Source of the DNA: a virus
Virus record (IMG/VR): IMGVR_UViG_3300028920_000142
Span: 1-41,183 of that record
Reading direction: 5' to 3' (one strand)
DNA length: 41,183 nucleotides
The translations under genes were made by a program, and so were the position numbers. Every line of letters starts with the position of its first letter. Positions within the stretch are counted from its first letter, which is position 1. The notes under the pieces are model-generated. The model did not search any database. It was not told the origin of the DNA and worked only from the letters and a program-made list of their open reading frames with translations. This document shows positions 10,377-41,183 of this stretch, in pieces.

Positions 10377-11303
10377 CTACACAACCCTCCCTTCATGTCG
10401 TTCGCATCGTTCTGCTATGGACTTGAGGAGCTGAGGGGTCGCCTCGTAGTACCAATAGGTGTGGGCAATGTCAGAGTGTCCGAGGTACAGGGACACGGCT
10501 CGTGTATGGATTGCCACCATCTTACGATCCGCCACGCAGGACTCGAGAGCCCGCACGGCAAACGTGTGTCGCAGGCTGTGCAGGACGGGCCCCCTCACCC
10601 CGTCCCTTCGAGGGATTCCTATTCTATCGACGATCTGACGAAAGACGCCGCTTGGTACCCCCTTCGCCATCTTCGTCCCAGTTGTAGACGGGAACATGAA
10701 TTCGCTGCCGGCGATCACTCCGCGTCTCCCGCGAAGGTAGCGAAGAAGCGCTTCCTCTACGGACGGGTGAAGGGGAATGGCACGACTCCTGCCCTTCGAT
10801 CCTCTAATCGCGAGCACGCCATGGCGGAGATCCCCCAAGCGGAGTCTCTGCGCCTCGGAAACCCGCATCCCGGTGGAAGCCAACAACCCAAAAAGAGCGG
10901 TGTAGACACGATGCCTCTGGGATCTTCCTGGCCGCCATCGGCTCGATGCGGCCAAGATTTGCTGAATCTGGGTTGGGCTCAGAATGTACGGAGTTGGGCG
11001 TTGCTTGGGATACGGCCCAAAGTAGTCGCGCGGGGGGAATTCGTTCCTGTCGTCCTCTGCACGAGTGTAACTCACAAACCGGTGGATCGTGCGCAAGCGG
11101 TGGACTCTGATCCAGGTCGATTCAGACATGGTAGCGAAGCGAACGGCCAGTTCGGCGGAAACACAGTCCACATCGTTCTCCGCCGAGAACGCTGCGAACG
11201 CGCGGAGAAGGTGGCCCTCACGTTGAAGCTTGCGTCCGGCTGCAGCCTGCATCTCAAGGTACGACTCGACCTGCGTTGTCAGTCTCGATCTCATTCGGGC
11301 CAT
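10377..11303 (-). CDS. ritB: Tyrosine recombinase, second RIT gene
   Basis: It encodes 308 residues. The catalytic set is visible: Arg in STGMRVSEAQ, Lys in GSKGRSRAIPL, the H-S-L-R-H box, His in LGHSDIAHT and Tyr in the YWYYEA segment. The start ATG (11303) overlaps the end of the first recombinase by 13 bp, and the stop abuts the start of the third, giving a coupled three-gene unit. The length fits a typical middle RIT recombinase. Confidence 0.88.
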   Translation of the reverse strand: MARMRSRLTTQVESYLEMQAAAGRKLQREGHLLRAFAAFSAENDVDCVSAELAVRFATMSESTWIRVHRLRTIHRFVSYTRAEDDRNEFPPRDYFGPYPKQRPTPYILSPTQIQQILAASSRWRPGRSQRHRVYTALFGLLASTGMRVSEAQRLRLGDLRHGVLAIRGSKGRSRAIPLHPSVEEALLRYLRGRRGVIAGSEFMFPSTTGTKMAKGVPSGVFRQIVDRIGIPRRDGVRGPVLHSLRHTFAVRALESCVADRKMVAIHTRAVSLYLGHSDIAHTYWYYEATPQLLKSIAERCERHEGRVV

Positions 11304-12472
11304 GGCTGCGCTACCTCCTTCATGGCATCGGAGCTCGCATGCATGTAGTGAGCCGACGTGGATTTCGACCGGTGCCTCAGGAGCACTTTGATGGACTCGG
11401 GCTGGAGCCCAGACTCGGCCATTCTAGTCGTAGCTGTGTGTCGCAGAAGCTGAGTTCTCGGGGCAGGATTGCGGATGCCTGCGTTGCGAAGTGCCTTCTG
11501 CCAGATTGCCGTGATCGAGCTGGATGTAGAGAGTGGAGTCTTCGGTACAACCGACCGGATGAACACAACGTCTGTCCGGACCTTGGGGCGCTCATGCTCG
11601 ATGTAGTCGAGCAGTGCATCGCCTACCGCCTGAGGAAGAGGGAGCGCAACCCGGCGTCTCCCCTTGCCGCAGACTCGAATCAACCCGTTCTCCCAATCGA
11701 TATCTCGCACTCGGAGCTCCAGAACATCACGGCACCGCAAGCCGACCTGGACGAGGAGGAGCAAGACCGCGGTATCCCTCCTGGCGTTCCGGCCTTGAAT
11801 GCCAGCAAGCATTCGATTCACCTCGTCGCTCGAGAGTACTGCTGGCGACGGATCAGCGGGCGGCTGTCGAACAGAAGGAACCGCATGCATGAGCTCAGGT
11901 GGGCATTGTCCTGTCGCGACCGCGTATCTCACGTACGCGCGGATACCGACTACAAAAACGCGAAGGCCTTGCGGCGCGCAATCTCGTGTGAGTTGAAGCA
12001 CCGCGTTGCGGAGATTCTTCGCTGTGTATTTCGCAGGATCCGATCCGAGCTGTTGGGTGACTTTCTCGATCTTGGGGCGGTATCTGTCTGCGGAAGCTTC
12101 CGAAAGGCCGCGGTTCTGCTTGAGCCACTCCAGGCACTCCTCAACACGTTCATCTCGAACCCGGTCAGGTCGAATTCGGCGCTCCTTGGGCCCCTGCTTC
12201 ACGAAGCGGAGAAAGTTTCGCGCGTACTTGATGCGCTTGCTCATTCGAATTCCATCGCCGGTTTCGAGACACGAGCATCTGACAGCATGGCGGGCGAAGG
12301 CCGGGAGATCTTCCAGGCTCAGTTGGTTCATACGCATCCCTTGACTACCTGCCCAGACAGACAGGTGCCATGCATTTGCCAACACCGCGTAGCAGTAGTT
12401 CCTTTCGTAACCATCGCGATGAAGCGCTGCTGCGAAGGCTTCAAGTTCCTTGGTCGCAGGCCCACTTCGCAT
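11291..12472 (-). CDS. ritA: Tyrosine recombinase, first RIT gene
   Basis: With the Met at 12472 as start it is 393 residues, the usual size for the first RIT protein. The frame is open further, to an ATG at 12772, but that start lies outside the element and reads through its terminal repeat, so it is unlikely to be native. The core-binding domain begins at about residue 8 (ELEAFAAALHRDG). Catalytic residues are Arg in VGLRCRDVLEL, Lys in GKGRRRVALPL, the second-box R-H in QLLRHTATTRM, His in LRHRSKSTS and Tyr in AHYMH. The position that is normally His in the H-x-x-R box is Gln here (Q-L-L-R-H), a substitution not seen in the other two recombinases. Confidence 0.82.
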   Translation of the reverse strand: MRSGPATKELEAFAAALHRDGYERNYCYAVLANAWHLSVWAGSQGMRMNQLSLEDLPAFARHAVRCSCLETGDGIRMSKRIKYARNFLRFVKQGPKERRIRPDRVRDERVEECLEWLKQNRGLSEASADRYRPKIEKVTQQLGSDPAKYTAKNLRNAVLQLTRDCAPQGLRVFVVGIRAYVRYAVATGQCPPELMHAVPSVRQPPADPSPAVLSSDEVNRMLAGIQGRNARRDTAVLLLLVQVGLRCRDVLELRVRDIDWENGLIRVCGKGRRRVALPLPQAVGDALLDYIEHERPKVRTDVVFIRSVVPKTPLSTSSSITAIWQKALRNAGIRNPAPRTQLLRHTATTRMAESGLQPESIKVLLRHRSKSTSAHYMHASSDAMKEVAQPWPE

Positions 12473-12725
12473 GCGCGCCAGCGATCCCCTTTTTCGGTAG
12501 AATTTGTCCAGCAAATCGCTCTCCTCCCAACGCGCCAGATACCGCACCACCACCAGTGCGAGTTCGACGACGTTCAACAAGAGACGAGCGTAGTTCGAAA
12601 GAGATCTACGAGTTCCCAGCCTCAAGTGCCTCAGTGCGGTCCGTTGGTTATGCTGATTTGGAACCACCAAGGATGTATCAATCCGGCTGAAAGGCGCGAA
12701 TCCCGGTGTATTCAACCTGGGCTCT

Positions 12726-12754
12726 GCATAACCCAAGGCACCGCATAACCCATC
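12726..12754 (-). repeat. RIT terminal inverted repeat, right
   Basis: It is the exact reverse complement of 9339-9367 over 29 bp, with two copies of GCATAACCC on the plus strand. Its outer end lies 17 bp from the stop codon of the spike gene. Confidence 0.9.
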
Positions 12755-12778
12755 TAATGCTGAATTCCGCATTAGATG
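12751..12778. repeat. 10-bp inverted repeat at the RIT/spike junction
   Basis: CATCTAATGC and GCATTAGATG form perfect 10-bp arms around the 8-bp centre TGAATTCC. The left arm includes the outermost 4 bp of the RIT repeat, and the right arm includes the spike stop codon (TAA on the minus strand). It could be a by-product of insertion next to a matching target, part of the recombination site, or a weak hairpin. Confidence 0.6.
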
Positions 12779-15497: not shown

Positions 15498-18320
15498 TCA
15501 GTACGCCGGCACCGACGAGTAGGTGCGGTTGGCCGTGTCGCGGTCGGCGTTGTGGGTGGCGTGGGCGATGGTCTCGCCGTCCACTTGGAGTTTCAGAACG
15601 ATGGGCTGACGCGCGCCCGGTCCGCCAGCGCGGTCGCGCATGGTCGAGCGGAGGGTAGACTCCAGCCGGTCGAGGCTCCGCGTCCGGACACCCGCCTCCG
15701 TGGCCGCGGGAGTCGCTGTCGACGTGGTCGCGGGCGCCGAAGTCGGCTTGATGACTTGGTTGACCGCGGCGATGGCCGTGGTGATCGTGCTGCCGATGCT
15801 CACCGAGGCGCGGGTCCGCTTCAGCTTCTCCAGGCTCGACGGGAGCAGGGCGTCCGGGATCTTCTCGATGATGCTGAGCACGAAGTCCCAGATCTTGTTG
15901 ATGACCTTGCGGATGCCCCGGCCGATGCCGGCGAAGAAGTCCACCACCGGCCGGAGGAAGCCCTTGATCCCGTCGGCGATACCCTGGAAGACGCTCTTGA
16001 ACCAGGCCCCGATGCCGACGAAGAACTGGCCGATGGCCCGGAAGAAGTTGCCCACGGACTGGATGGCCGAGCGGATGGCGTTCGGCAGGGTCTCCACGAA
16101 CCACGTGTAGATGGCGGTGGCGATCTTGCCGATCCAGGTGCCCAGCCAGACGAAGGCGTCGATCAGCCCTTTGACCCCGTAGACCCCCAGGGCCACGACC
16201 CGGATCAGCGCCGCCAGCACGTAGGTGACTCCCGTGACCGCCACACCGAGGGTTTGCCCCAGGAACTCTCCCAGGGACCGCCAGGCGCTGGTGGACTCCT
16301 TGGCTCCATCGGTGGACGAGCTGGTGGCGCCGGTGAGGGTGTTCCAGGCGTCCTTGAGCATGTTGATGGCGCTGGCCACCGCGTCCAGGGCCGGGCGGAT
16401 GTACTTCAGCATCGACCGGAAGCCGGCAACGATCCCACCGGTGATCCGCGCGAACACGGCGATGACCTTGGCCGCCCACTTCACGATAGTGCCGAAGACG
16501 GCGCCCACCACCTGCCCGAAGCTACGGAACTTGTCCGAGGGCAACCCCGCCGCGCCGCCGGCGATGTCGCCGAACAGGGCGGCGATCTCCCGCCCCAGCT
16601 CCGAGAAGGCGTCCACGAGGTCCGCGAACACCGGGCGCGCCGCCTCAATGGTCGAAACGAACCCCTCCTTGAACCCCTCCCACACCTGCTGGATGCGGTA
16701 GACGATCTGCCACACCGCGATGAGGAACCGCTTGAGCCCCTGGTTCTCCGCGCGGTTGAGCTCATCGCGCACCGCGCCGGAGAAGCCGCCCTGCACGAAG
16801 AGCTGCTTCAGGGCCTGGAAGAACAGGCTCACCTTCTCCCACACCCGCCGGGCGAAGTCACCGATGCCGCCCAGGTTCTTCTTGAAGGCGATGTAGAACC
16901 CCGCCACCACCGCGGCCAGGACCCCGATGATCAGGATCACCGGCAGCAGCGACGCCAGGATCCCGCCGATGGAGATCCCCAGCGCCTGGAAGGCGATGGC
17001 CAGCAGGGCGATGGTCGCCTTGGCCGCGATGACCCCGCCCACCAGCATCAGGAACCCGCCCGCAGCCAGCACCACGCCCGCGAGTGCCTTCTTGATGGGC
17101 GCGGGAATGGACTGGAAGGCCTTCAAGATGGCGTTCAGCGCGTTCACCAGAGCCTTCACGATGGGTTTGAACACCTGGGCGAAGGGCTTGCCCAGCACCA
17201 CCGCGAAGGTCTGCATGGTGCCCTTGAGCAGGGTCTTCTGCCCCTCGAAGGTGTCGAGCAGCTTGTCCCGGAACTGGGCCGCGGTCCCGGCCGCGTTGCC
17301 CATCTGCTTGCGCAGCGCGGCGATGGCTTCGGCCCCTCGCAGGGTGACCGTCACCCCGTCGCGCACCGTGGTGAAGGCCGCCTTCTGGATGGCGTTGAAC
17401 GCCAGGAGCCCCCGGGCGCCGAAGGCCACAGCCACCCGTCGGTTGCGCTCCTTGTCCGTCATGTTCGCCGTGGCCCGGGCGAAGTCGGACATGATGTCCA
17501 CCACGGAGCGCATCTTCCCGGTGGACTGCTCGAAGATCTTCACCCCGGTCCCCAGGACAGCGTTCTGCGCCCGCGCGTCGGCGCCCACGCGGCGCACGAC
17601 CTCCCGGAAGGCAGTCGCCGCGCTCGAGGCGTCGATGTTCCGGTTGCGAAGCAGGCCCATGGTGATGAGCGTGTCGTCCAGGGCCTGGTTGAACGTCGCC
17701 CCGGCCGCGGCAGCCTTGGCAAGCCCCGCCTGGAAGTCCCGCGTCTGGAAGTTGGTGAGCTGGGTGATCCGCAGCAGCTTGTCGGTGATCCCGGCCGCCC
17801 GCTCCGCCTCCAGCCCATACGCGTTCAGCGTGCCCACCACCGCCTCGGCCGCCGCCGCTACCCCGAGCTGGCCCAGCGACCCGGCAGCCAGGTCCAGCAC
17901 CGGGATCAGCGTACGGGTCGCCTGAGTGGCCGTCTGCCCGGCCGTGGCCAGCGAGGTCAGCCCCTCTACCGCCTCGGTGGGGGAGAACTGGGTCCGGATG
18001 CCGGCCTCGATGGCCGCCTGCCCCAGCATGTCCATCTCGCTGGCCGTGGCCCGGGTCACCGCCCCCACCGCGGCCAACCCCTGCTCGAACTTGCCCGCCG
18101 CGTTGGCCAGCGACAGCGAGCCCGCCACCATGAGGGCGCCCGCGGTGAACACCGCGAAGCCCACGGCAAGCTGCTTGAAGTTGCCCATCATCCGCTGGGT
18201 CCCCAGTCCCACGCGCTCGTCCAGCGAGCTGAAGCGTCGCTCCACCCGCTGCATCTTCGACGACGCCAGGTCCCGCGCCGTGAAGACGAAGCCGAGCCCC
18301 AGGGAACCGTTCAAGCCCAT
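15498..18320 (-). CDS. Tail tape measure protein
   Basis: It encodes 940 residues, the longest gene in the window. The N-terminal 350 residues match the TP901/PhageMin tape-measure core (segments [12 protein letters not shown] and [17 protein letters not shown]). Two hydrophobic regions (about 50-75 and 405-475, the latter long enough for several membrane passes) are typical of tape measures that help DNA cross the inner membrane. The C-terminal third has repeated aromatic-Gly helices ([10 protein letters not shown]). By the usual rule of about 1.5 angstroms per residue, the tail would be near 140 nm. ATG at 18320 overlaps the end of the HNH gene by 10 bp. Confidence 0.9.
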
Positions 18321-18997
18321 TGGTCGTCCCCGGTCCCCACGCCCGGATCTGCCGTCAATCGTTGGAGCAGTCGGATGTGCGCCTCCTCCAACTCCAGCTC
18401 CAGCTCACCGCGGCCGTGGTAGGCCAGGTGGCATGCAGCACAGAGTGTGAGCAAGTTGGCTTCGTCGTTGTTGGTTCGGTCGAGATCCACATGGTGGACC
18501 TGAAGCATGCCTTGCGCGCTGCCGCAGATGGCACATCGGAAGAGGTCGCGCGCGACGATCCTGTCGCGGAGCTCTTGCGTCCAGTCGTCTCCGTACGTGC
18601 CGATACCAGGCCTGCATCGTGCTCGTGCACGCGACGAGATCTGGGTACGGGTTTTAGGCGAGTGTGTCCGGCCGTAGAACGGGTTCTTCCTGCCACGCTT
18701 GTCGTAGGTGCCAATGATCCGATTCCTGAACGTCTCCGTGTCGTAGGCCCCTCGCCGCCATGCGGCTTTCACGGCTTCCGACTGGCTGTGCTTCCCGCGT
18801 CGTCGATCACAGTGTCGTTGCTCTGCTGTTGATCGGACTGGAATGCCGAGGACGCGCAACCGGCGCAGAATCGTCTTCGAGGAGACACCGCGGCTATCTG
18901 CAATCTCCTTCGCCGACTGCTCCCGCCACACGTAGTCGATGGCGATCTCGACGAGGTCCTTCTCAGCCGACAGTGCTTTGTCTTGGTTGCCTATCAT
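18311..18997 (-). CDS. HNH endonuclease with HTH and NUMOD3 motifs, inserted in the tail operon
   Basis: It encodes 228 residues in three modules. There is a helix-turn-helix at about 28-52 ([20 protein letters not shown]). A NUMOD3-like DNA-binding motif follows at about 105-122 (N-P-F-Y-G-R-T-H-S then T-R-x-Q-I). The HNH nuclease spans about 150-195 with C155-x2-C158, H168-H169, N181 and C186-x2-C189-H190. This is the build of free-standing phage homing endonucleases. It lies between the tail assembly chaperone and the tape measure. Its ATG overlaps the T-frame stop (ATGA), and its 3' end overlaps the tape measure start. It is less GC-biased than its neighbours. It probably spreads by cutting phages that lack it. 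Confidence 0.85.
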
Positions 18998-20083: not shown

Positions 20084-20668
20084 ATGAAACCGTGGTGGCA
20101 ACGTGAACTCGTCGATCTTCTCCCCAAGCTACGGGCAACCTTGGCACGCAGGCTCCCCTATCGAAGCTCTGAGCAGGAAGACGTGCTGAATGATACCGTG
20201 GTGGCGGTTACACAGCGGATGCAGAGTGGTTCGACATCCGGAACGGTGAATTGGAGCAAGGAGCCTTCATCTGTCAACGAACGCGAGGCCTTCCACAAAT
20301 TTGTCTACGTCATTCTGCGCAGGCGTATCTGTGATTTCTACCGCTTGAGAAGCAGCAACAAGAATGTCAGCGGACTTGACGACGTCGGTTGCATCGCCGC
20401 CCCCGACGGCTGCGCCGACCATCGAATCTTAGTCAAGCGCATGCTAGGGATCGTCGCTACTTCTATGCACGAGTTAACTCAAGAGGATCGCGATCTGATT
20501 GCGTTGGCAGGACAGGGCAGCGAGGCACCATTTCACCTTTCTGCGCGTGAGAGACAACGCCTCAGCCGGGCACGTAAGAAGCTGCGCGAGGCGATTGTGG
20601 CGGAGCTCGGGGAGGATGTCCTTGTCTTGCTAAATCGCGATGGAGACGAATATGGCACAGCTACCTAA
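20084..20668 (+). CDS. ECF-like sigma factor, cargo of island C
   Basis: It encodes 194 residues. Region 2 is visible as EQEDVLNDTVVAVTQRM plus AFHKFVYVILRRRICDFYR (about 29-90). Region 4 is seen at about 125-175 (LTQEDRDLIALAG, then L-S-A-R-E-R-Q-R-L-S-R-A-R-K-K-L-R). No anti-sigma partner with a typical ZAS motif is next to it, but a single-pass membrane protein is encoded two genes away. The stop overlaps the start of the metallophosphoesterase gene, implying co-expression. It is AT-richer than the late genes. Which promoters it would recognise is unknown. Confidence 0.72.
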   Translation: MKPWWQRELVDLLPKLRATLARRLPYRSSEQEDVLNDTVVAVTQRMQSGSTSGTVNWSKEPSSVNEREAFHKFVYVILRRRICDFYRLRSSNKNVSGLDDVGCIAAPDGCADHRILVKRMLGIVATSMHELTQEDRDLIALAGQGSEAPFHLSARERQRLSRARKKLREAIVAELGEDVLVLLNRDGDEYGTAT

Positions 20669-21899
20669 AGACGCCCAGCCGATCCTACAGATAGTCCACG
20701 TATCCGATATCCATGTCGATGAGGTTCCCGACGGTAGGGAAAGTGAAGTAGACGCAGTGTTGCTAGAAAGGCAAAAGTATGCTTGGGCCGAGAACAAACT
20801 TAAGGAATGGCTCGATCGAACCGTTCCCTCTCAGACTACAAGAAGGCTATTGTTGGAGTGGCTCTATAAGGAGCTCAGATGCGGAACTGCGCCTTACGAT
20901 CCAGGAGCGAGTGATGACTTCCTGGATTTCCTCGGCTCTTTCCTGAAGCAAGACGAGAGATGGATCGGGATGCCAACCTGGTTAGTGGACACGGGCGATC
21001 ACAGCGTTTTCGGAGACACAGAATCTTTGAAAGAAGCAGCTGTAGTGCTTAAAGAACTCTGCTTTGACGAGGACAATTTGATCCACCTCATCGAGGAAGA
21101 CAAGCTGGTTCATTGCATCCATGGAAACCATGACGTTTGGCCAATGGATTTTTTCTTTCCGCGAAAGGAGGACTTCTACCTTCCGTGGACGAGGAGTGTG
21201 CCCGAAGACGTTAAGGCGCACTTAAAGCAGTTGGAACAAGAGTTATATTACGCGGTTGGCAAAGTTGTGGCTCCACTTCGACAGCAGATTGCAGGCGGGC
21301 CATCTGTGGTTCAGCTGTTCACTCTGGACACGGTCGATCCGGCGCGCCGGCAGAACTTCTTCGCGCGTGGGCGCGTAGAGAAGCGCAATCTGGATGATCT
21401 CGACGACATGATCAATGGAGTAGACGGCGAGGGAGACGCGCGTCATTTTCGAATCCTGGCATCACACCATCCAGTGACACATCCTCCCAGCGATATTCCC
21501 TATGTGATGAAGCTTCATCGCGCGGACCGAGTACAGAAACGCCTGCGCAATGCCCCACGGATTCACCTTGTCCTCAGTGGCCACACGCACGACCTTTACC
21601 CGCTTCTTGGGACTTTCCACAAAGACGAGCACTTTTTATCTGAGCCACGTCAGCTCGTCGTGGGTACCCTCATGCAGGTCGACTACTCGAAAGAAAAAGT
21701 GTACGATAATCAGTTCCAGATCCTGCGCTTGTACGAGTCACAATCGTATCCGCGGCAAATATACATCGAGCGGATTGTAGCAGCGCGAGCAAAGCTGGAA
21801 ACCCGTGCAACGGACGGCAGGAAGGCCGACGGTCGGCCGTTCGAGAACGTCTCCGCAACCGACGACGCGCCTGGTGAGGTGTTCAGCATCGAGCTGTGA
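20652..21899 (+). CDS. Calcineurin-like metallophosphoesterase, cargo of island C
   Basis: It encodes 415 residues. The full metal-binding set is present: D-x-H in VSDIHVDE near the N-terminus, G-D in VDTGDHSVFGD, G-N-H-D in HGNHDVWP, a His in ASHHPVTH and G-H-T-H in SGHTHDLYP. It should therefore be an active two-metal phosphoesterase; the substrate (protein, nucleotide or nucleic acid) cannot be told. ATG at 20652 was preferred because GGAG lies 6 bases upstream; an in-frame ATG at 20640 is the alternative. Either start overlaps the sigma-factor gene. No signal peptide is seen, so it is cytoplasmic. Confidence 0.8.
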   Translation: MAQLPKDAQPILQIVHVSDIHVDEVPDGRESEVDAVLLERQKYAWAENKLKEWLDRTVPSQTTRRLLLEWLYKELRCGTAPYDPGASDDFLDFLGSFLKQDERWIGMPTWLVDTGDHSVFGDTESLKEAAVVLKELCFDEDNLIHLIEEDKLVHCIHGNHDVWPMDFFFPRKEDFYLPWTRSVPEDVKAHLKQLEQELYYAVGKVVAPLRQQIAGGPSVVQLFTLDTVDPARRQNFFARGRVEKRNLDDLDDMINGVDGEGDARHFRILASHHPVTHPPSDIPYVMKLHRADRVQKRLRNAPRIHLVLSGHTHDLYPLLGTFHKDEHFLSEPRQLVVGTLMQVDYSKEKVYDNQFQILRLYESQSYPRQIYIERIVAARAKLETRATDGRKADGRPFENVSATDDAPGEVFSIEL

Positions 21900-23963: not shown

Positions 23964-26156
23964 TCAAATGTGGGATCGGAAGCGCAGTGGGCGGAGACTC
24001 GTGTCGCCTGGCAGCACCAGGCCCCAGCCATTGATCGTGTCCATGGCGGCCAGGAATGCCTCCTTCTCGTTGCGGGTCCCGGCCGGGCTGAGGACCACGG
24101 AGATGTGGTCCTGCTTCACTCGCACCTGACCCGGTGCCTTGAGCAGGTTGGCCAAGGCTTTCTTGGCCTCCGCCGGACGCCGGAGATGTGGCGCCAGTGT
24201 GTAAGCCAGGTCGGTTTCGGCGTTGGCGCAGACGATGCGGATCGTGTCCACCACGGTCTTGTACGGCGTCTCGTGATACACCAGCCGTCCGGCAAGCTCG
24301 GTCTCCTCCACCGCGGCCTTCTTCGGCACGTGTGGGCGTAGCGCCTCCAACTCGTCCTGGCGCTGCATCGCCTGCGCGAGTTTCTTCTCCGCCCGCTGTC
24401 GACGGCGGTCATCATCGGCTGGGAGGCGTGCCAGGTCGCGACGCGCCATGCCCTCCTCCACTCGTGCCAGGCGTAACGCGTTGTCGAGCTTGCGGCGGGC
24501 CGGGTTCGGGATCACGGTCCCTTCCGGGTAGTGCCGCACCTTGCGGCCGTCGAGCTGGTTGATACCCCAACGCTCGACGCCGTGCTTGAACGCGTTTTCC
24601 TGGCACCACCGCCCCAGCATGATGCCGATCAACATCTGGGCCGGCGCCTTCGAGATCGCCAGCAGGTTCACCTGATAGCCATCCTCCATCCGCAGGGCGA
24701 TCCGGCGGACTCGCCCCCGTCCTCGACCCAGGTTGGTGTTTCGCTCGTGGAACTCGATCACCTCGTCGCCGAGCTTCACCTGCTCGGTGAACACCCCCGG
24801 GCTGAGAAGCGGATACGGGCGCCGCTCGTAGGTCACGAATTCGAAGCCGAAGTCCCGCAGCTCCACCAGTTGCTCGGCGTACGCCCCGGCCCGGTCGAAG
24901 GCCAACAGGAGCCGCTGCTCCTCGCCCAGCCCCTCTCGCAGGAGCACGGCAATCGGGCTCAGAAGCGCGGTCAGCGATTCGTTCGACGCCACTGGCACTC
25001 GCAACACGGGCCGTCCATCCTCGTCGTGGACGTAGTAGTCGGTGGTCCCGGGCAGCACCCGCTTGTCCTGCATCCGCCAGCCTTTACGGATCACGTGCTT
25101 GCCCGTGTAGGGACGCATGTGGTTGTCCACATAGAACACCGTCACCTGCTCGTCCAGGGCCTGCGCCTCTCCCAGGTAGAATCCCGCGATCAGCAGGTGC
25201 AGCTCCATCGCGCCCGTGTCGTCCGCCAGCCGCTTGAGCACACGCCGCACCCAGCTTGCCGACGGCGCTTGGTCCGCACGAAGCAACACGCCACCGCTGG
25301 GCGTCGCCAGACGGCGCACGCCTTCGACGCAGCACTGCCCGATGCTCAACGCGCAGATCACGGCGTCCACCGCCAGCCGCACACTGTGCGCCCCACGCCG
25401 CGCTCCCCAAACCTCGGCCACCGCATCGTACAGTCGATGGCGCACGGCTTGTCCCAGCATCAGCCAGGTCCCCACGTGCTGGACCAGCTGGCCGCCTCGG
25501 ACCGGCGCGGCGGCGATATGCTCCGTCCCGCCCTCCTGCTCCTCCGCAGACCCCGTCGGCTCGGGAGCGGGGCGATCCGGCTCCGATGGTGACTCCTGGT
25601 CTTCGAGCGCCATGCGCTGCTGCTCCATCGCAGGGGTGGGCGTCGTCTCTTGCGATAAGTCCTCTGGCTGCTGCTGCTCTGCCTCCCACTCCTTGTGTAC
25701 CACCCAGACGGTGTGATGGGAAACCTCGAACCGACGCTTGATACGCCGATGCGCGGGCCGGACCCCAAGCCCTTGCTCGAATAGCTTGTGAAGCTCACGG
25801 CGCAGCTGTGGCGTGAGTTTCCGATCGCCCCGAAAGCCCCCCGGACCTTCGGTGGGCAGCGCAGCAATACCACCTCGTTCTACGCGGCGGCGGACTCGAC
25901 GCAGCTGCTCGGCGGAGACATCGAACGCCCACGCCAGCTTGCCGAGACGGATCGTCGGCTCCTGCGCCAGGCCCACCATCAGTAGATTCCGAACGCCCCG
26001 CTCCTGGGGATGGTACTTGCCAACGACCGTGCCGCCGACGAGGACTTCGACGTGATCTAGGTGATGGACTACGCAGCCGTGCCGCGAGAACCAACGGAGA
26101 TTGGGATTTGACGGCGGCTCGGTCAACGGTAACATCAGGGTCGCACTCCGGGTCAT
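23964..26156 (-). CDS. DDE-type transposase
   Basis: It encodes 730 residues, intact. The N-terminus has a helix-turn-helix region (about 65-165: [17 protein letters not shown], then a second HTH with [14 protein letters not shown]). A Gln/Glu/Pro-rich linker follows. The catalytic core has candidate acidic residues in [27 protein letters not shown] and a later Glu (W-C-Q-E-N-A-F-K). The C-terminal part is helical and charged. The arrangement fits unclassified or IS1202-like DDE transposases, but the exact family could not be fixed. ATG at 26156 lies about 100 bp inside the right inverted repeat. Confidence 0.82.
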
Positions 26157-33003: not shown

Positions 33004-33942
33004 CTAGAGCTGCACGTTGATGGCCTTGCAGACGCCTTCCTCCTCCGAGTAGCGTACGTCTGCCTCCAGGGTCACCACGACCGCCAGCGCGCGCCGGCGG
33101 ATGGACCGCTCCCACTCGATGCGGATCTTGCGGCGCACACCCACCACGATGTTCTTGGGGTGGGTCAGGATCACCACGGTCTGGTTCTGGCCGGGCCCCA
33201 GGTCGTCGGGGAAGAGCGGCACGGGCACCACCGGCGTGCCCGCCGCCAGGATCGGCGTGTCGACCTCGAGGTACTTGTCGCCCATCGCCGTCTCGCGCTG
33301 CGAGCGGTGGCGGCGCAGGTTCGCCTCGGCGTCCTCGGAGGTGTAGAAGCGGAGCTGCCGCTTGTTCTTGCGGAAGCGGGGCGGCAGCGTCTTCATCATG
33401 TCGTGGAACAGGTCGTCGTCCACGGGGCCGCCGGCGGCGTCCACCACGTTGGACTGCGCCTGTACCAGGACCCCGTCGAGCTGCGCCAGGAAGGGGTCGG
33501 CCGAGGTCTGGTCGCCCTTGATGGCTACCTCCTCCAGGTCGCGACCCACGGCCGGCCCCAGGAGCTGCATGATGGTCTGGCGCAGGTCGCCCTGCTCGAT
33601 GTTCTCCTCCAGGACCCGGTCCGAGAGGTTCACCTCGCCGATGAACTCCTGGGCGTCCAGCTCCACCTTGGAGATGTCGGGCACCACGCGGTCGGCCTGC
33701 GGGAGCTCGGTCAGCTCCTGGGCGGCGCGCAGCACGCGGCTGCCGAAGGCGATCTGGTCGATGTCCTCGCGGGCCCGGTTCATGGGCCGGTAGGTGACCT
33801 GGCCCAGGAGCACCGACTCCACGGTGGTAAGGCGCATGAACTTCTTGGCCTGGACCGGGTGCAGCAGCCCGCCGTTGCTCACCAGGTGGGAGAGGGCGAA
33901 GTCCGCTTTCTCCAGGATGGTTCGGTTGGACATGTGGCTCAT
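33004..33942 (-). CDS. Major capsid protein
   Basis: It encodes 312 residues. It has a helical N-terminus ([29 protein letters not shown]), [18 protein letters not shown] and a C-terminal [25 protein letters not shown] region. These fit phage major capsid proteins of the HK97 fold found beside XkdF-like proteases. The scaffold and protease genes just upstream support this. ATG at 33942 follows GAAAGGA. Confidence 0.82.
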
Positions 33943-33963: not shown

Positions 33964-34929
33964 CTACAGGTCGTGGAAGGAGACCGCCTTGTCGACGCTC
34001 TCCCGGTCCACGGGCTGGTTGAGGTCCAGGGGCCAGCTCGCGCCGGCCCCGCTGCCCGCCGCCCCGGGAGCGCGCTCCCCGGCGGGCTGGCTGTTGGGCA
34101 GGCCGAAGCGCTTCTCCAGCCGCGCCAGGCGCTGTTGCTGCTCCTTGACCGTGCCGGTCAGGGCCTGCAGCGTGGTGACCAGCGCGCCGAGCTGCTCGCC
34201 CAGCGGGTTGGGCGCCTGGGCGGGCGCCTGAGCCGGTGCCTGGACGGGCGCCTGGCCCGACGCGGGGCTCTCGGACGACGCCGCAGCCTGGCCGCCCGCG
34301 GCAGTCGGGGCTCCCGACGCGGCCGGCTTGAGGGCCGCGCTGACTCGCTGCAGCGTCGCGCGGATGGAGTCCATCGCGGACGCCAGGCGGTCGCCCTTGG
34401 CTGCCGGATCTCCCGCACCACCGGCAGCCGAAGCGGACGTGGCGTCCGCGGCGGTGCCAGAGCCGGGCTCGGAGCCCGCGTCACCTCCGGCGCCCACCAC
34501 TTCGGCGAGCTGCCCGGCCACGGCCTGCAGCTCGCCGGCGAGCTCACCGAGCCGGGGCCCGGCCTCGTCGACCTCCTGGTCGCCGAGCAGCTCCACCGCC
34601 TCGGTCAACCCCTCCAACGCCGCCACCGCCGCGGCCAGGGGCCCACCCGTCTCGGGGGCTGGGCTGCCCCCCGCGCCCGGCTCTCCGGTGCCCGTATCGA
34701 CCTCCCCCTGGGCCGTCGTCGCGCTCCCGTCCGCGCCATCGCCGTCGCCACCGGGAGCGTTGATGTCACTCTCCACCGGGGCGGTCTCGTTGGTCGTCTC
34801 GTCCATGCCGTCGCTCCTTTTCACGATGAGAAAGCGGCGCTTGTTGGCCGCCCGGTCCACGAGGGACACCTCCTCCACCACCATCTCCAGCAGGCGCGTC
34901 ACCCGGTCCTTTCCGCTGGCCCCGGGCAT
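33964..34929 (-). CDS. Prohead scaffold-like protein
   Basis: It encodes 321 residues. The N-terminal 40 residues ([21 protein letters not shown]) are a conserved segment often seen next to or fused to prohead proteases. The rest is low-complexity and Ala/Gly/Pro/Asp-rich, with a Q-A-P repeat ([15 protein letters not shown]) and a coiled-coil-like stretch with [12 protein letters not shown]. That build is typical of scaffolds, which line the prohead and are cleaved. ATG at 34929 overlaps the upstream stop (TGATG), right after the protease gene. Confidence 0.75.
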
Positions 34930-36686
34930 CAGGCCGCCTCCTGCTCGGGCGCGGGCGCCTCGGTACGGGAGGTCTCCACACCTCGGGCGGACGCCTCATC
35001 CGCTGCCGCCGTCTCGGGGATCCGGCGCGCTGATCCACCCACCGAGAAGCCTCCCAGGGTCCCGTCCTTGATCCGCGCCCACAGCTCGTCAGACAGGATG
35101 CGCACCGCCAGCAGCCACGTGCCCCGGCGCACCTTCACCCCGCCGATCTCGAAGTCCACCGGCGCCAGATAGCTCTCCAGGATCCGCACCTGGCCGTTGA
35201 CCTGGAGCCGGTGCATCAGGCCCAGCCCGCCGAACTCCTCCATGAACCGGTGCGCCGCCTGGCGGATCTCCTCGGCCGAGTAGATGTCACCCTGGGCGTC
35301 CACCACCTCGGGCTCGAGCACGATGCCGAGGACGAACCGCTCGTCCTGGGGGTCCACGCCCTTGATCAGCGGGATGGTCTTCGAGAACGAGCCTGCGCCC
35401 ACAGCGGCACCGCCGTCCTGCTTCGCGGCCTTATCGGTCCCGCCCTTCTTCTGCGCCTCTGCCAGGAGCTGCCGCGCCTGCTCCTGGAGCGCCGTGAGGT
35501 CGTCCGCCGACAGGCCCGGGATCCTGCTCTGCGGGATCCGCGAGATGGCGTTCTGCAGGTGCGGGATGTCCAGCTCTCCGTCCACGTCTCGGACCGGAAA
35601 GTGCCGCAGGCTGCGCGGCGTAGTCTTGCCCTCGTCGTCCTTCTCGCCGCCGGGCTCGATGTGCAGGAACGCGCTGTCCTCCAGGTCGTTGATGTAGGCC
35701 TGGCTCCACTGGTCTTTCTCGATTCCGGTCGTCTCGCCGGCACCCTCCCGAGACTCCCAGCCCTCGAGCTCCCAATCCTCGACCCCCCAGCCCGCGTCCT
35801 CCAGCGCGTGGAGCTGCTTCTTCACCGGCGCGAAGTTCGTCACCACGAGCTGGGTCAGCGTCTTCGGCCCGCCCACGCCCCGCATGGACCGGATGGTCCG
35901 CGGCGTCTGGATCCGCTTGACGTGGAACCCCGAGCCCTTGAGCAGCCCGGGCAGCTTGCCCCGCACCCCGTAGGTCAGTAGGAACTTCCCCTTGAGCGAC
36001 TTCAGGACCTCGAAGAACCGCTCCTCATCGAACTTCGACTCCCCCACGGCCACGTCGTAGCCGGGGTAGGGCGGGTCCAGGAAGAACGCCGTGTGAGGCC
36101 CGTCGTACTTGCGGACCACCCGCAGGTAGTCCCCGTCGTAGACCCGCACGTGCTTGAGCCTCGGCCCGTGCTTCTCCAGCCGATCCACCGATCGGGCGAC
36201 GATGCCCTGGCCAGACGGGCTGAAGCTCCGCCCCCGCATCTTCCCGTAAGAGAAGTGGGTCACGTACAGGAACCGGTGCAGCTTCTCCACGTCGCCAGTC
36301 GGTTTCGAGTCCAGCAGCCGCTTGTAGGCCGCCCGGTCCCCCACCCAGCGCATCCGCTTGAGCCGCTTGATGCCGTCCGCGGTCATCCGCTTTACCAGCC
36401 GGTAGGCCTGGGCCAGCTCCACGTCCGCGTCGTTGATCACCTCTACCCGGGACCGCTCCTTGGCGAAGAGCACCGCCGCGCTCCCGCAGAACGGCTCCAC
36501 ATAGGTCCGGTGCGGCGGCAGCATCGCCGCCAGCCGCTTGGCCAACCGCTTCTTCCCGGCCGGGGAGCCCCACAGGGTCTTCTCGACCCTCTCGGGCGCC
36601 ACCTGACCCAGGACATCGCGGGCCTTCTCCACGGCCACGACCGCCCGACGCTGAACGTCGCTCTCGGCTGCAGGGGTGCTTCGCAA
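34929..36686 (-). CDS. DNA adenine methylase fused to XkdF-like prohead protease
   Basis: It encodes 585 residues with two enzymatic parts in one frame. Residues about 40-285 are a Dam/D12-class N6-adenine methyltransferase: P-F-C-G-S-A at 65-70 (AdoMet motif), N-D-A-D at 85-88 and the catalytic D-P-P-Y at 204-207. A linker (about 300-430) carries S-L-R-H-F-P-V-R-D and I-P-H-L-Q-N-A-I-like prohead-protease leader segments. Residues about 440-557 match the XkdF/peptidase S78_2 fold, with candidate His492 (GLMHR) and Ser548 (GFSVGG). The start is TTG at 36686, with AGGAGG 6 bases upstream. Cleavage may release the methylase during head maturation. Confidence 0.85.
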
Positions 36687-36857: not shown

Positions 36858-37856
36858 ATGAAGCAGAGCGTGCGTGTTTTCGGAGTGCTTGCGCTAGCCA
36901 TGGCAGGGTGTTGCGGCAACAGGGCGGCTCAGCATCCAAACATTCCCAAGCCAGTCGTTCGAACTTCCAGCGACAAGAAGCAGCTGGCCACCTGGAGCGA
37001 CGGCCGAATAAAGAAGAGAATCCTGAGGTTCGTTGCGGATGTAACGACGCCTGGAAGGCCGACCTATCTCCCTCCGTCGCAACGACTTGCTGTCTTTGAC
37101 TTAGACGGGACAGTTCTATGCGAGAAGCCGGAGTACATTGAGGTTGTTCTCGCACTTCAGAGGCTTAAGGAACTTGCCAGAAAGGATCCTCGCCTGGCCA
37201 GCAAGCAGCCCTATAAAGCCGCTCTAGCCAATGAATCGACCTATATCAGCAAGTACGTCAATACTGTCCTATTCACAGCATTCGCTGGAATGAGACAAAA
37301 GCAATTTCGAGAGCATGTACTACGATTTTTGAAGACAACCAAGCATCCCTGGTTGAATAAGCCATATATCGAGCTCTACTATCGACCGATGAAAGAACTG
37401 ATCGAGCTACTTCACAAGTACAAATTCCGCGTGTACGTATCTTCGACTTCAATGCAAGAGTACATCAGAGCGTTTGTGCCTCACGTACTCGGCATTCCGG
37501 TTCAGCGAATAATTGGATCTACGATCCGAAGTTCGCTGAAGGAAGGAGCTAGTGGCGTCATAACCATTATCAGAAGCACGGGATTTGACCTTCCGCACAA
37601 CTCAGACCGCGGCAAAGTGCAAAATATCTGGAACCGTATCGGGGGAAGACCTATCATCGCAGCAGGCAACTCAATGGGCGACAGCTACATGTTGCGCTTC
37701 ACTTCTCAGGGGCCTACGAGCCTCGTGCTTGTTATCAATCATGATGATGTAGCTCGAGAAGGCTACTCTTATAGCAAACCAAAGTTGTTAGATTTGGCAA
37801 AAAAGTCGGGATGGATTGTCGTCGGCATTAAGAACACGTTCCGACTGGTTTTTTAG
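36858..37856 (+). CDS. Exported HAD-family phosphatase lipoprotein, cargo of island D
   Basis: It encodes 332 residues. The N-terminus is a lipoprotein signal (hydrophobic VFGVLALAMAG, then Cys18), so the protein is probably anchored outside the inner membrane. HAD motifs are intact: D81-x-D83-G-T (nucleophile and acid/base), S195-S196-T (motif II), K253 and G-N-S-M-G-D at 270-275. It resembles phosphoserine-phosphatase-like or nonspecific acid HAD enzymes, but the substrate is unknown. A Shine-Dalgarno (AGGAG) lies 6 bases before the ATG, and a weak -10-like TATAGT sits at 36772. The gene is AT-rich with unusual codons. An exported moron could act at the host surface, for example in superinfection exclusion, which is inference. 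Confidence 0.8.
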   Translation: MKQSVRVFGVLALAMAGCCGNRAAQHPNIPKPVVRTSSDKKQLATWSDGRIKKRILRFVADVTTPGRPTYLPPSQRLAVFDLDGTVLCEKPEYIEVVLALQRLKELARKDPRLASKQPYKAALANESTYISKYVNTVLFTAFAGMRQKQFREHVLRFLKTTKHPWLNKPYIELYYRPMKELIELLHKYKFRVYVSSTSMQEYIRAFVPHVLGIPVQRIIGSTIRSSLKEGASGVITIIRSTGFDLPHNSDRGKVQNIWNRIGGRPIIAAGNSMGDSYMLRFTSQGPTSLVLVINHDDVAREGYSYSKPKLLDLAKKSGWIVVGIKNTFRLVF

Positions 37857-38035: not shown

Positions 38036-39127
38036 TCACTGGGGAATGCTCACCAGGGAGCTTCTACATAACCCGTGTAGCGGCGGGAATGATATTCCAA
38101 GGTCCAAGAGCTCGTGCTCGCCTAGGCCTCGGACGAACTCGCCCCGGTCGTCCTTTGTGCCGACCGCCGAGCGAGCGACCTCGGCGATCACCGTCCGCTG
38201 GCCGGCCCGATTGACGTAGAGCGACTTGCGACCTGTGTCGGGGTCCAGGGACTCGCGAACCCAGGGCAGGATGTCCTTCATCCGGTCGGGCTCGGCCTCG
38301 ACGCGCTCGAAGAGTTGGAGCCCTCGGCTCACCGAGAAGGTCTTGCCGTGCAGGAAGCGGCAGGTCTCCGTGGTGTGCTCGTCGAGCACGGCCTCGAAGA
38401 CGTAGCGGTCGATGCCCGCCTCGGCGAGGGAGGAGAGCTGGCCGCAGGATCGTCCTTGCGCGATGAACGAGCCGGCGACCACCTCCCAGTAGGGCTGGCC
38501 ACGGCCGGCGATGGTGGACGCGGCAGCCCGGGCCAGGTCGCGGGCGATGTCCTGGCGTCCCAGCCCGGCCTCCAGACCGTCGGACACGATGCGCCTGGCC
38601 TGGACACTGAATACCTCTGCCCGGCGGCCGTACTCGTCGCGGATGAAGGCGCTCTGGCTGGTGGCGAGGTAGTCGACGACGCGGCGGTCCAGGGCGTTGA
38701 AGTCGGCGCTGATGGCAAGCCGCTGACCCTGGCGCGCGGCCGAGCGGGCAGCCCGGACCACCTCGTCCGCGGCGTCGCCGAATGTCGCCTGCACAGCGCC
38801 TGGGACCGCGGCAGTCCGACCACCGGCAGCTTTGAGGGCCTGGGCGATGAGCGCCCGGCGCCGCTCGGCCGTGGTGCTGCCCCAGTCCACGTCGAGCACC
38901 GAAACCGCCGCGCGCACCGCCGCGTCGTCGGCCTGGGAGGCCCGAGCGCGGAGCTGGGCGGCCAGGCGGGCCACGGCGCGGTCGAAGCCCCTGGCGCTCC
39001 CCAGGTTCATGGCCTTCGACACCGGCACCCGGAGGTAGCGCTCCAGGAGCTCGTCGGCCGCCTCGCGGGCCTCCGAGACCAGCCTCAGCCGGGCCTCGAC
39101 GCTACCCTCGGTGCACATGCGCCGCAC
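38036..39127 (-). CDS. Minor head protein, Mu gpF/SPP1 gp7-like, with recoded 3' end
   Basis: It encodes 363 residues (360 if the in-frame ATG at 39118 is used). The C-terminal domain has the Mu F-like signature: V-L-D-E-H-T-T-E-T-C-R-F-L-H-G-K-T-F and, about 90 residues later, F-P-P-L-H-G-L-C-R-S-S-L. It takes part in head morphogenesis and DNA entry near the portal. From about 38150 to the stop the codons change to AT-rich, rare ones (CTA, ATA, TCA, TTA, AGA) while the conserved motif is kept. This is the edge of cargo island D. The start overlaps the zinc-ribbon gene by up to 26 bp. Confidence 0.82.
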   Translation of the reverse strand: MRRMCTEGSVEARLRLVSEAREAADELLERYLRVPVSKAMNLGSARGFDRAVARLAAQLRARASQADDAAVRAAVSVLDVDWGSTTAERRRALIAQALKAAGGRTAAVPGAVQATFGDAADEVVRAARSAARQGQRLAISADFNALDRRVVDYLATSQSAFIRDEYGRRAEVFSVQARRIVSDGLEAGLGRQDIARDLARAAASTIAGRGQPYWEVVAGSFIAQGRSCGQLSSLAEAGIDRYVFEAVLDEHTTETCRFLHGKTFSVSRGLQLFERVEAEPDRMKDILPWVRESLDPDTGRKSLYVNRAGQRTVIAEVARSAVGTKDDRGEFVRGLGEHELLDLGISFPPLHGLCRSSLVSIPQ

Positions 39128-39389
39128 CGCCAGTCCCAGGTGGACGTAGGATCAGCGGGCTTCGTTGCCGTGCTCGGACCTCGAGGCCTGCCTCGGTCGG
39201 ATGCAGCAGCACGTCGTGGCTCTCCGCACAGCGGTCACACACCGCGAAGACGAGGACGCCGTTCCGCCACAGGGTGATCGCCTCGTCGAGGCCCGCCCGC
39301 TGGTGGCAGATCCGGCACTCGATGACGCCTCGCTCGGCGTCGAGCTGGGCCTGATGTACCCAGGCCTGGTTCAGTGTTTCCGCGTTCAT
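39102..39389 (-). CDS. Small zinc-ribbon protein
   Basis: It encodes 95 residues with C-R-I-C-H and, 24 residues later, C-D-R-C-A, a C-x2-C / C-x2-C zinc ribbon. ATG at 39389 is preferred: GGAGG is 6 bases upstream, and it overlaps the stop of the sigma-like gene (TGATG). A GTG at 39392 is the alternative. Function is unknown; it sits in the head module between portal and minor head genes. Confidence 0.6.
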   Translation of the reverse strand: MNAETLNQAWVHQAQLDAERGVIECRICHQRAGLDEAITLWRNGVLVFAVCDRCAESHDVLLHPTEAGLEVRARQRSPLILRPPGTGGAAHVHRG

Positions 39390-39925
39390 CACCGGCCTCC
39401 AGCGCTCAAAGCGAAGTACGTGGCGTTGGTGGCCTCGGGAAGGTCGTTCGCGTCCGCTGCCGGCTGGTGTCTGACCGCCTCACCGCGCCAGAGTCGCGCC
39501 AGCTCCTGGCCTTGCTCCTCGTGGAGCCGGGCCAGGGCCTGCCTCTCGATCTTGCGGACACGCTCGCACGAGAGGTTCAGCAGCTCGCCGATCTCATCGA
39601 GGGTGTGCTCGCCGCCCTCTGCCACGTCCAGGGCGCAGGTCTCCGGGATCTCCCAGGGCGCCAGGTGCGGCCACGCCACGGTGATGGCGCCGCTGGGTTT
39701 CACCTCGAGGTACAGGTGGTGCCGACAGCCGACGAAGGGGCACGGCCGAGGTCCGCGCCGGCAGTCGGCACGGGATGCCGGCCGTGGGTGTTCGAGGGAC
39801 GGCAGCTTCCCCGTAATCCTGCGCCAACGGAGAAGGGCTGCAGGACTCATGGTCTTGGGCCTCGGGTCCAGCCTGGACCGTCGGTCGATTCGTCTTCCTC
39901 GTCGTTGTTCCTCGTGTGCTCTCAT
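39389..39925 (-). CDS. Sigma region 4-like DNA-binding protein
   Basis: It encodes 178 residues. The C-terminal half has a Cys-containing segment (RPCPFVGCRHHLYLEV), then E-T-C-A-L-D-V-A-E and a sigma-70 region 4.2 helix-turn-helix (TLDEIGELLNLSCERVRKIE, about 120-145). No region 2 is present, so it is not a complete sigma factor. Proteins of this build are annotated as sigma-factor-like HTH proteins in several high-GC genomes. It lies inside the head operon, coupled to the portal gene (ATGA). It could act as a late-transcription co-activator; the 37-bp elements are candidate sites. That link is inference. Confidence 0.75.
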   Translation of the reverse strand: MRAHEEQRRGRRIDRRSRLDPRPKTMSPAALLRWRRITGKLPSLEHPRPASRADCRRGPRPCPFVGCRHHLYLEVKPSGAITVAWPHLAPWEIPETCALDVAEGGEHTLDEIGELLNLSCERVRKIERQALARLHEEQGQELARLWRGEAVRHQPAADANDLPEATNATYFALSAGGR

Positions 39926-41183
39926 GATTCGTCCTCGACAGGTGGCTCCTCACTCGCGCCGCTGCCACCGGCGCCGGCAGCCAGGCTCTCGAACCAGGAG
40001 CCGAACTCAGCGTCCGGCACCGGGATCCGCTCCTTCGCCGGTCCGGCGAGGTAGCGCCGGGCCAGGGTCATGCGCTGGTCGGACAGGCGTCTCTCCTCGG
40101 CCGCGAGCTCCTCGCGGAGGTTGACCAGACTGCGTGCGTCGCGGAGCAGGGAGCGCTCGCTACCTTCCGGTTGGTCCTCATTGTCAGCTCGAAGATTTTG
40201 GATGCCCGCCAACGTGAGAGTGATGGGCTGCTTCACCCACGCGGCGCCGATCTTGCGGAACTCCCGGTTGAAGATGTCCCCGGCCAGCAGGCGCCCCTCC
40301 TCGGGCGTGAGCACCCCTACCCGGACCAGCTTCTCCACCATCCCGGAGAGCCGCTCCGGGTCGCGGGTCACCGGTGTCTGGGACCGGAACCGCCAGAACC
40401 GGATCCCCATGTCCGCCAGGAGCCGCCGGTTGATCAGGTAGTCGAACTCGTCCCGCTCCGGCTGGAACACCTGGTCCTCGGCGAACCGGAGCTGGGCGTC
40501 GGCCACGGCGCGGTTGAAGTCCTTGCTCTCCCCGCGCAGCAGCCGCGGCACGCGGAAAGCCGCGCCCACCTTATCGATGTTCCGCTCGTCGTAGACCTGG
40601 AAGAGCGCGTCCTGCTGCTGGGCGTCAGTCAGGGGGCGCAGCTCGATCTTGGCCCTCGCGTGCTCGCCGGCGCCGCTGCCTTCAGCCTCGAGGATCAGCA
40701 CCTTGTGGAAGTTGTCCTTGCCCTTGAGGTTCTCCTCGATGAACCGCTCGATGCGCGGCACGGACGTCTCGGAGAGCTTGCCCCCCGAGACCAGGAGGGC
40801 CAGGGGCGGCACGGACTTGTTCTCGAAGTAGAGGTAGTTGACCTCCTCCATCTGCCGCGATCCGAGCACCGCGAGCAGGGTCCCTACCCAGCGGGGCACC
40901 CCGTATGGAGAACGCGGCGAGTGGATGGAGAAGTGGATCAGCTCGTTGGCCGGGCCGTCCTCGGGGTCGGCCTCCAGCAGCGACTCGACGTCCTTGAACA
41001 CCTCGCCGGTCTTGCGGGAGACCACCCGCGGGTCCCCGAAGGACTTGAAGAAGACCTGCTCCGTCCCCTGGATCTGCACGTAGCGCCGCAGCCGCCGCTT
41101 CGAGGAGACCACCTCGTAGCTCACCGGCGACACCTGCACACGGTCCGCCACCTCCACCGACACCTTGTCCAGGGACAGCAGGC
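39922..41183 (-). CDS. Portal protein, 5' end outside the window
   Basis: About 420 codons are visible. The frame stays open to the right edge, so the N-terminus is missing. The visible part has portal features: H-F-S-I-H-S-P-R-S-P-Y-G-V-P-R-W-V-G, an F-E-N-K-S-V-P-P-L-A-L-L-V-S-G-G segment, FRVPRLLRGE and W-R-F-R-S-Q-T-P near the clip/stem. These match PBSX/P2-type portals of contractile phages. The C-terminus is acidic. It forms the dodecameric DNA gate at the head vertex and is the first visible gene of the late operon. Confidence 0.85.
   Translation of the reverse strand, partial: LLSLDKVSVEVADRVQVSPVSYEVVSSKRRLRRYVQIQGTEQVFFKSFGDPRVVSRKTGEVFKDVESLLEADPEDGPANELIHFSIHSPRSPYGVPRWVGTLLAVLGSRQMEEVNYLYFENKSVPPLALLVSGGKLSETSVPRIERFIEENLKGKDNFHKVLILEAEGSGAGEHARAKIELRPLTDAQQQDALFQVYDERNIDKVGAAFRVPRLLRGESKDFNRAVADAQLRFAEDQVFQPERDEFDYLINRRLLADMGIRFWRFRSQTPVTRDPERLSGMVEKLVRVGVLTPEEGRLLAGDIFNREFRKIGAAWVKQPITLTLAGIQNLRADNEDQPEGSERSLLRDARSLVNLREELAAEERRLSDQRMTLARRYLAGPAKERIPVPDAEFGSWFESLAAGAGGSGASEEPPVEDES

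Follow-up and report, generated by a model that had tools for sequence, protein, structure and literature searches.

A phage contig encodes, in one open frame, a Dam-type DNA methyltransferase joined to the N-terminal side of the protease that is predicted to mature its head. The contig is an IMG/VR virus record; the whole stretch analysed, 41,183 nucleotides long, is called the window here. The reading that we find reasonably probable is that the fusion is a maturation protease with an N-terminal methylase cargo, a two-domain polyvalent protein that the virion would deliver to counter restriction in the host. Such a reading must, of course, be weighed against other uses of a methylase, and against the possibility that the single frame is not read as a single protein.

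The fusion gene and its two domains

The fusion frame is open for 585 codons and is listed with a TTG start, with an in-frame GTG slightly 3' of it as an equally plausible start. The original prediction had placed a Dam-type methylase and an XkdF-like protease in this one frame, with the AdoMet and DPPY motifs of the former intact and with plausible His and Ser residues in the latter. Pfam, PHROGs, AlphaFold2 and homologous fusions all bear this out.

The methylase half matches MethyltransfD12 (PF02086) at residues 44-239 with E=5e-15, far over the gathering cut-off, and phrog_13242 (450 positions) with E=9e-202. Against the PDB, phmmer matches it to 7m6b and 2dpm. Its AdoMet motif reads directly as VEPFCGS. 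AlphaFold2 gives it a confident Dam fold, with pLDDT mostly 90-98, and Foldseek finds 7m6b, E. coli Dam, DpnM and T4 Dam as PDB neighbours of the model (target-normalised TM-score 0.66-0.75 for E. coli Dam and DpnM). The last three resemble the window methylase in both fold and motifs; unlike it, Dam and D12 methyltransferases are normally free-standing. GATC occurs in the window at 0.96 of expectation, neither avoided nor enriched, a value uninformative on the specificity of the methylase.

The protease half matches Peptidase_S78_2/XkdF (PF14550) at residues 441-556 (E=2e-29, 102 bits against a cut-off of 24) and phrog_3017, "head maturation protease", with E=7e-37. A sequence search found it no relatives in the PDB. 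Its AlphaFold2 model is fair (pLDDT ~80), and the viral structural neighbours of that model are XkdF proteins.

In an alignment of 32 homologues, whose numbering is shifted by 8, the columns that hold the AdoMet motif, DPPY, His492 and Ser548 are invariant or nearly so. By its AdoMet motif, DPPY, Rossmann methylase fold and profile, the window protein is a D12-type methylase, with methylation activity predicted. By profile, His/Ser pair and gene position, it is also an XkdF protease, predicted to cut the scaffold and itself. Having at least two functionally unrelated domains that come from a shared domain pool, it fits the concept of a polyvalent protein; its packaging in the virion and transfer into the host cell are predicted from the position and homology of the protease. 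Table 1 gives the coordinates.

Table 1. Coordinates in the window of the fusion gene, its parts and the neighbouring head genes
Feature	Position	Strand	Basis
Major capsid protein, HK97 fold	33004..33942	-	phrog_1623
Scaffold gene	33964..34929	-	phrog_13975, E=4e-39
Methylase-protease fusion gene, 585 aa	34929..36686	-	Open frame; homologous full-length fusions
XkdF / Peptidase_S78_2 head-maturation protease domain, residues 430-560	35007..35399	-	PF14550, phrog_3017
Putative catalytic Ser548 ("GFSVGG")	35043..35045	-	Invariant in homologue alignments
Putative catalytic His492 ("LMH")	35211..35213	-	Invariant in homologue alignments
Linker, residues 309-429, with helical mini-element	35400..35762	-	No Pfam family; low pLDDT either side of element
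D12 class (Dam-like) N6-adenine DNA methyltransferase domain, residues 18-308	35763..36635	-	PF02086, phrog_13242, phmmer, Foldseek
DPPY catalytic motif, residues 204-207	36066..36077	-	Direct reading; invariant in 32 homologues
Mu-F-like minor head protein	38036..39127	-	phrog_13868
Portal protein	39922..41163	-	Pfam/PHROGs

The head module around the fusion

The fusion had been said to lie directly ahead of the scaffold and capsid genes, and the Pfam and PHROGs matches of the neighbouring ORFs confirm that place. The TGA stop of the fusion and the ATG of the scaffold gene overlap by one base, and the major capsid gene comes next. On the 5' side lie an inserted reverse-strand gene, then the Mu-F-like minor head protein, a sigma-like protein and the portal. 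Among relatives the order portal, minor head protein, cargo-protease, scaffold and major capsid is conserved.

No second protease was found by Pfam and PHROGs among the roughly 30 window ORFs scanned. The window record is linear and has no terminase on it, so a further protease gene may lie off the contig. From its baseplate matches and weak sheath matches, the window virus is classed as a contractile-tailed phage; its hosts are myxobacteria-like.

Two further genes lie within the module. At 36858-37856 (+), between the minor head gene and the fusion, is a HAD-family hydrolase with a lipoprotein-like N-terminus and 50% GC in a genome of 66% GC, likely a recently acquired moron. At 39389-39925 (-), between the portal and minor head genes, is a Sigma-70 region-4-like protein, of which a copy 66% identical lies near the head genes of one relative (L112).

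Distribution of the fusion among relatives

When IMG/VR was scanned with the window protein, both domains turned up within a single frame in about 30 contigs, at identities mostly of 45-67%. An alignment of the protease domain only (A1), used as query, gave 309 relatives in viral contigs, of which 80 were kept, and 57 in bacterial genomes. The latter are mostly Myxococcota (Myxococcus, Corallococcus, Archangium and Polyangia MAGs), the binning being taken as given.

Dropping redundant and truncated frames left 112 protease genes. At least one D12 methylase is fused to the protease in 92 of these 112 non-redundant full-length relatives, a fraction valid within this clade but not for XkdF proteases in general, as A1 was seeded mostly with fusion members. 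One methylase is present in 56 genes, two in 30, three in 6 and none in 20. Among XkdF proteases at large, unfused forms are common. On the protease tree the number of methylases shifts at least 20 times, a rough count from few columns and a poorly resolved tree with weak support; changes in methylase number seem to be frequent.

The same domain pair thus recurs in dozens of independent contigs, as a search proposed with the original prediction was meant to ask. The 92 full-length homologous fusions exclude a sequencing error or a missed stop as the origin of the frame. Nor do homologues always encode the two domains apart: at the loci examined there is no split pair and no methylase as a separate gene beside the protease. 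In none of 50,697 GenBank phage records is as much as 80% of the fusion covered at one place.

Selection on the methylase

Median dN/dS among the myxobacterial prophages is lowest in the protease (0.111), slightly higher in the methylase (0.157) and highest in the linker (0.546). Read from these ratios, the methylase is under purifying selection. Both of its motifs are kept in 116 of 134 copies, as judged by regular expressions.

These data bear on the view that the N-terminal domains serve the protease or scaffold as a handle, structural or DNA-binding, which for example sets spacing or provides a tether to the portal, with methylation incidental. The copy number and position of the protease do matter in assembly, and one or both motifs are missing in the other 18 of the 134 copies. 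A mere handle, however, would have little call for catalytic residues that are invariant or nearly so, or for a methylase dN/dS near that of the protease. Further, unrelated folds take the same place in other members, and the canonical XkdF proteases function with no handle of the kind. We consider this explanation very unlikely.

The linker and the question of an internal start

The linker of the window protein, about 120 residues long, matches no Pfam family over the cut-off. It contains a small helical element, and on both sides of this element AlphaFold2 gives stretches with pLDDT <50, which are probably disordered, to go by the model. Most single-methylase relatives have no element-bearing linker; in many of them the linker is only a few tens of residues long. 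A stretch resembling the element is found also in L108, L114, L116, L119-L121 and L139.

A single frame need not, of course, yield a single protein. Two might be made through an internal start or a programmed event, so that sharing a frame is translational economy only, and the protease/scaffold genes of herpesviruses do have internal starts. Here, just 9 of the 92 fusion genes have a start codon with a Shine-Dalgarno match of at least 5/6 anywhere in the linker, and the rate per start codon is not higher there than elsewhere in the frame. An internal start dividing methylase from protease was rejected, there being no conserved start with a Shine-Dalgarno sequence. The short linkers of many single-methylase relatives also leave little room for one. 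That two separate proteins are made seems to us exceedingly improbable.

Cargo variety on the same protease

The methylase is not the only enzyme found on this protease. An ATP-dependent DNA ligase (PF01068), with or without LigD-type phosphoesterase signatures, is attached to it in L034, L075, L086, L103, L104, L024, L095 and L164. One of these, L164, is 2128 aa long and carries three methylases and the ligase on one protease. A PF18823 pyrophosphatase (InPase) is present in L101, L107, L109 and L163, and a 2'-5' RNA ligase/2H domain in L084. Some members have long regions without a Pfam name at the cargo position, and one (L105) has essentially no cargo. The ligase, pyrophosphatase and 2H domains occur in members that lack a D12 methylase and in some that have one. 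The cargo enzymes act on DNA ends, bases and nucleotides.

The protease is C-terminal in the window protein and in nearly all relatives. Residues extend beyond it in L101, L106, L107, L109 and L156, and in L101, L107 and L109 these include the InPase.

Relation to canonical XkdF proteases

Canonical XkdF head proteases (PBSX/YqbD type; Lactococcus phage 28201 gp33, Enterococcus phage EG-TP1) resemble the window protease in family, catalytic His/Ser and gene position. They are made from a single gene of about 350 aa, in which an opening segment such as MRKLENVKVTHVSYVDKAANKKQFFLTK is followed by the protease and then by a C-terminal part; two of those examined (L040 and L043) start with the opening segment. 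The window differs: the segment sits with the scaffold in a separate gene, and the N-terminal place on the protease is taken by a methylase.

Over its first ~38 residues, the window scaffold matches the start of a canonical XkdF protease (phrog_3017 positions 5-32, E=7e-4). The scaffold ORF likewise starts with the opening segment in most relatives whose downstream gene is intact. The simplest reading, inferred from sequence, is that a canonical protease-scaffold gene split, with the protease half gaining an N-terminal cargo. The segment itself, which shifts between the protease and scaffold genes (the N-terminus of 33964-34929 and most relatives), might serve in prohead targeting, in capsid binding or as a cleavage element.

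Comparison with known systems

With the original prediction came the remark that such a fusion is not known to have a described function. This stands for the pair itself: no description of a methylase-XkdF pair was found in the literature on prohead or capsid-maturation proteases and XkdF, a search of open-licence papers that leaves absence unproven. It does not stand for the arrangement, as a C-terminal assemblin-like protease was noted in 2017 (PMC5512222). Those authors state that an assemblin-like peptidase, wherever a polyvalent protein has one, is always C-terminal and probably acts in virion assembly (Iyer et al. 2017, PMC5512222), and list InPase and 2H as phage-specific in the domain pool of these virion-packaged proteins (PMC5512222). 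The cargo classes found here overlap, by domain matches, the functional classes of that pool.

The likeness is one of plan: nucleic-acid enzymes, among them adenine methylase, InPase and 2H, are joined there to a C-terminal or nearly C-terminal maturation-type protease in proteins predicted to be packaged and injected (PMC5512222). Assemblin-like peptidases receive only a few sentences, however, and the methylases are helicase-linked and of the DarB type (PMC5512222). In the window clade the partner is D12/Dam-type, the gene takes the place of the maturation protease that the phage itself uses, and modules of ATP-dependent DNA ligase are frequent among the cargo. What is new, beyond that account, is the D12 partner, the use of the own protease slot, the apparent scaffold split with transfer of the N-terminal segment, the ligase forms and the extent of the clade. 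The members with a pyrophosphatase behind the protease (L101, L107 and L109) are, on their domain order, exceptions to "always C-terminal".

Phage P1 offers a precedent for a methylase in a head. Its antirestriction protein DarB, which has a methylase domain, is packaged in the head and is believed to pass into the cell when the phage infects (PMC9024508, PMC5512222); an N-terminal capsid-targeting signal recruits it (PMC9024508). By cryo-EM, the inner surface of the P1 head has 55 DarA-Hdf pairs on it, which contracted particles without DNA lack (PMC12810830). The Dar system (the methylase-helicase DarB with DarA, DdrB, Ulx and Hdf) resembles what is proposed for the window in that a methylase-containing antirestriction protein is in the head and head assembly genes are involved. 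It differs in that DarB is encoded apart from the prohead protease Pro, whereas the window methylase is covalently part of its protease. The comparison is of how the systems may work and not of membership: the D12 methylase has no helicase, and no DarA/Hdf-like family was found in the scanned window ORFs.

MuF-fused effectors and toxins provide a second parallel, in which a head-morphogenesis protein carries exchangeable effector domains (PMC5512222). There the carrier is a portal-associated minor head protein; in the window it is the protease, and Pfam finds no cargo on the window's own Mu-F-like protein.

Several database entries appeared to be known fusions. Proteins of PAK_P1, phiPsa374, Rhizobium RHph_TM16 and the Lactococcus 28201 group are annotated "DNA methyltransferase" (or "/prohead protease"), and were rejected as fusions, having 151-350 aa and no methylase domain. 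XkdF-only proteins carry this wrong label in Pakpunavirus, Otagovirus, Rhizobium and Lactococcus phages; PAK_P1 gp3, phiPsa374 gp161 and Lactococcus 28201 gp33 (L169, L042 and L040) are among many more in GenBank. The label probably spread from fusion sequences, and the fusion appears to explain this wide annotation error.

How the fusion might act

A rival reading has the methylase act in the cell that makes the phage. Here, the enzyme, as the fusion or freed by autolysis, would methylate phage DNA late in infection or during its packaging into the prohead; the virions would contain methylated DNA, and any copy of the enzyme in them would be irrelevant. Free-standing phage Dam-type methylases normally act in the producing cell, and hundreds of free D12 phage methylases were found in the search. 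AdoMet is small, and the motifs of the methylase are intact. Yet such a role needs no fusion to a prohead-bound protease, and 92 of the 112 relatives retain the fusion, with no split methylase gene beside the protease at the loci examined. A ligase or pyrophosphatase cargo is, moreover, unfit for marking DNA. We therefore regard action in the producing cell as unlikely.

For delivery by the virion, we infer packaging, cleavage, ejection and anti-restriction in the following order. The protease is needed in the prohead to digest the scaffold, and a methylase fused to it would be carried in. Inside the head, the protease would cut the exposed flexible linker as well as the scaffold, leaving the folded ~33 kDa methylase as a soluble internal protein. 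This would be ejected with the DNA at infection, and adenines of the entering genome would be methylated ahead of the host restriction enzymes. Relatives would swap the cargo against other host barriers, or to repair or close the linear genome.

What speaks for this order of packaging, release and ejection is that it accounts for why the two domains are fused at all, why the linker evolves fast and is modelled with low confidence, why the cargo consists of such enzymes, and why it matches the polyvalent domain pool. Placement in the prohead, release by self-cleavage and ejection, all raised as possibilities in the original prediction, draw support from the cargo pattern across the family. Prohead proteases, however, usually leave the head after autolysis; the freed methylase could be lost along with the protease, which counts against delivery.

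A broader proposal covers the large clade, mainly one of Myxococcota phages. Here the protease would be a general loading device by which N-terminal enzymes (sets of methylases, DNA end-joining modules, pyrophosphatase) are carried in, set free by the activity of the protease and delivered with the genome; the gene split would have allowed this loading, leaving the N-terminal segment on the scaffold. We judge this proposal to be evenly poised between right and wrong.

Should delivery be correct, anti-restriction and DNA-repair enzymes can be loaded into the particle in advance, with no additional signal to target them, because the assembly role of the protease guarantees entry into the head and release is automatic. 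The system would then be a delivery platform testable by swapping N-terminal cargo, and cargo content should track the restriction systems of the hosts.

Other genes of the window

Three consecutive tyrosine recombinases, all phrog_1, lie within the tail/baseplate module (9372-10376, 10377-11303 and 11291-12772, all on the minus strand). The triplet resembles a recombinase-in-trio element inserted amid structural genes. A Transposase_29 (PF21804) gene also lies amid structural genes (23964-26156, -). At 20640-21899 (+) is a Calcineurin-like phosphoesterase, and the ORF ahead of it (20084-20668, +) has a weak sigma-70 region-2 match. An HNH endonuclease gene adjoins the tape-measure gene (18311-18997, -) and is possibly a homing insertion.
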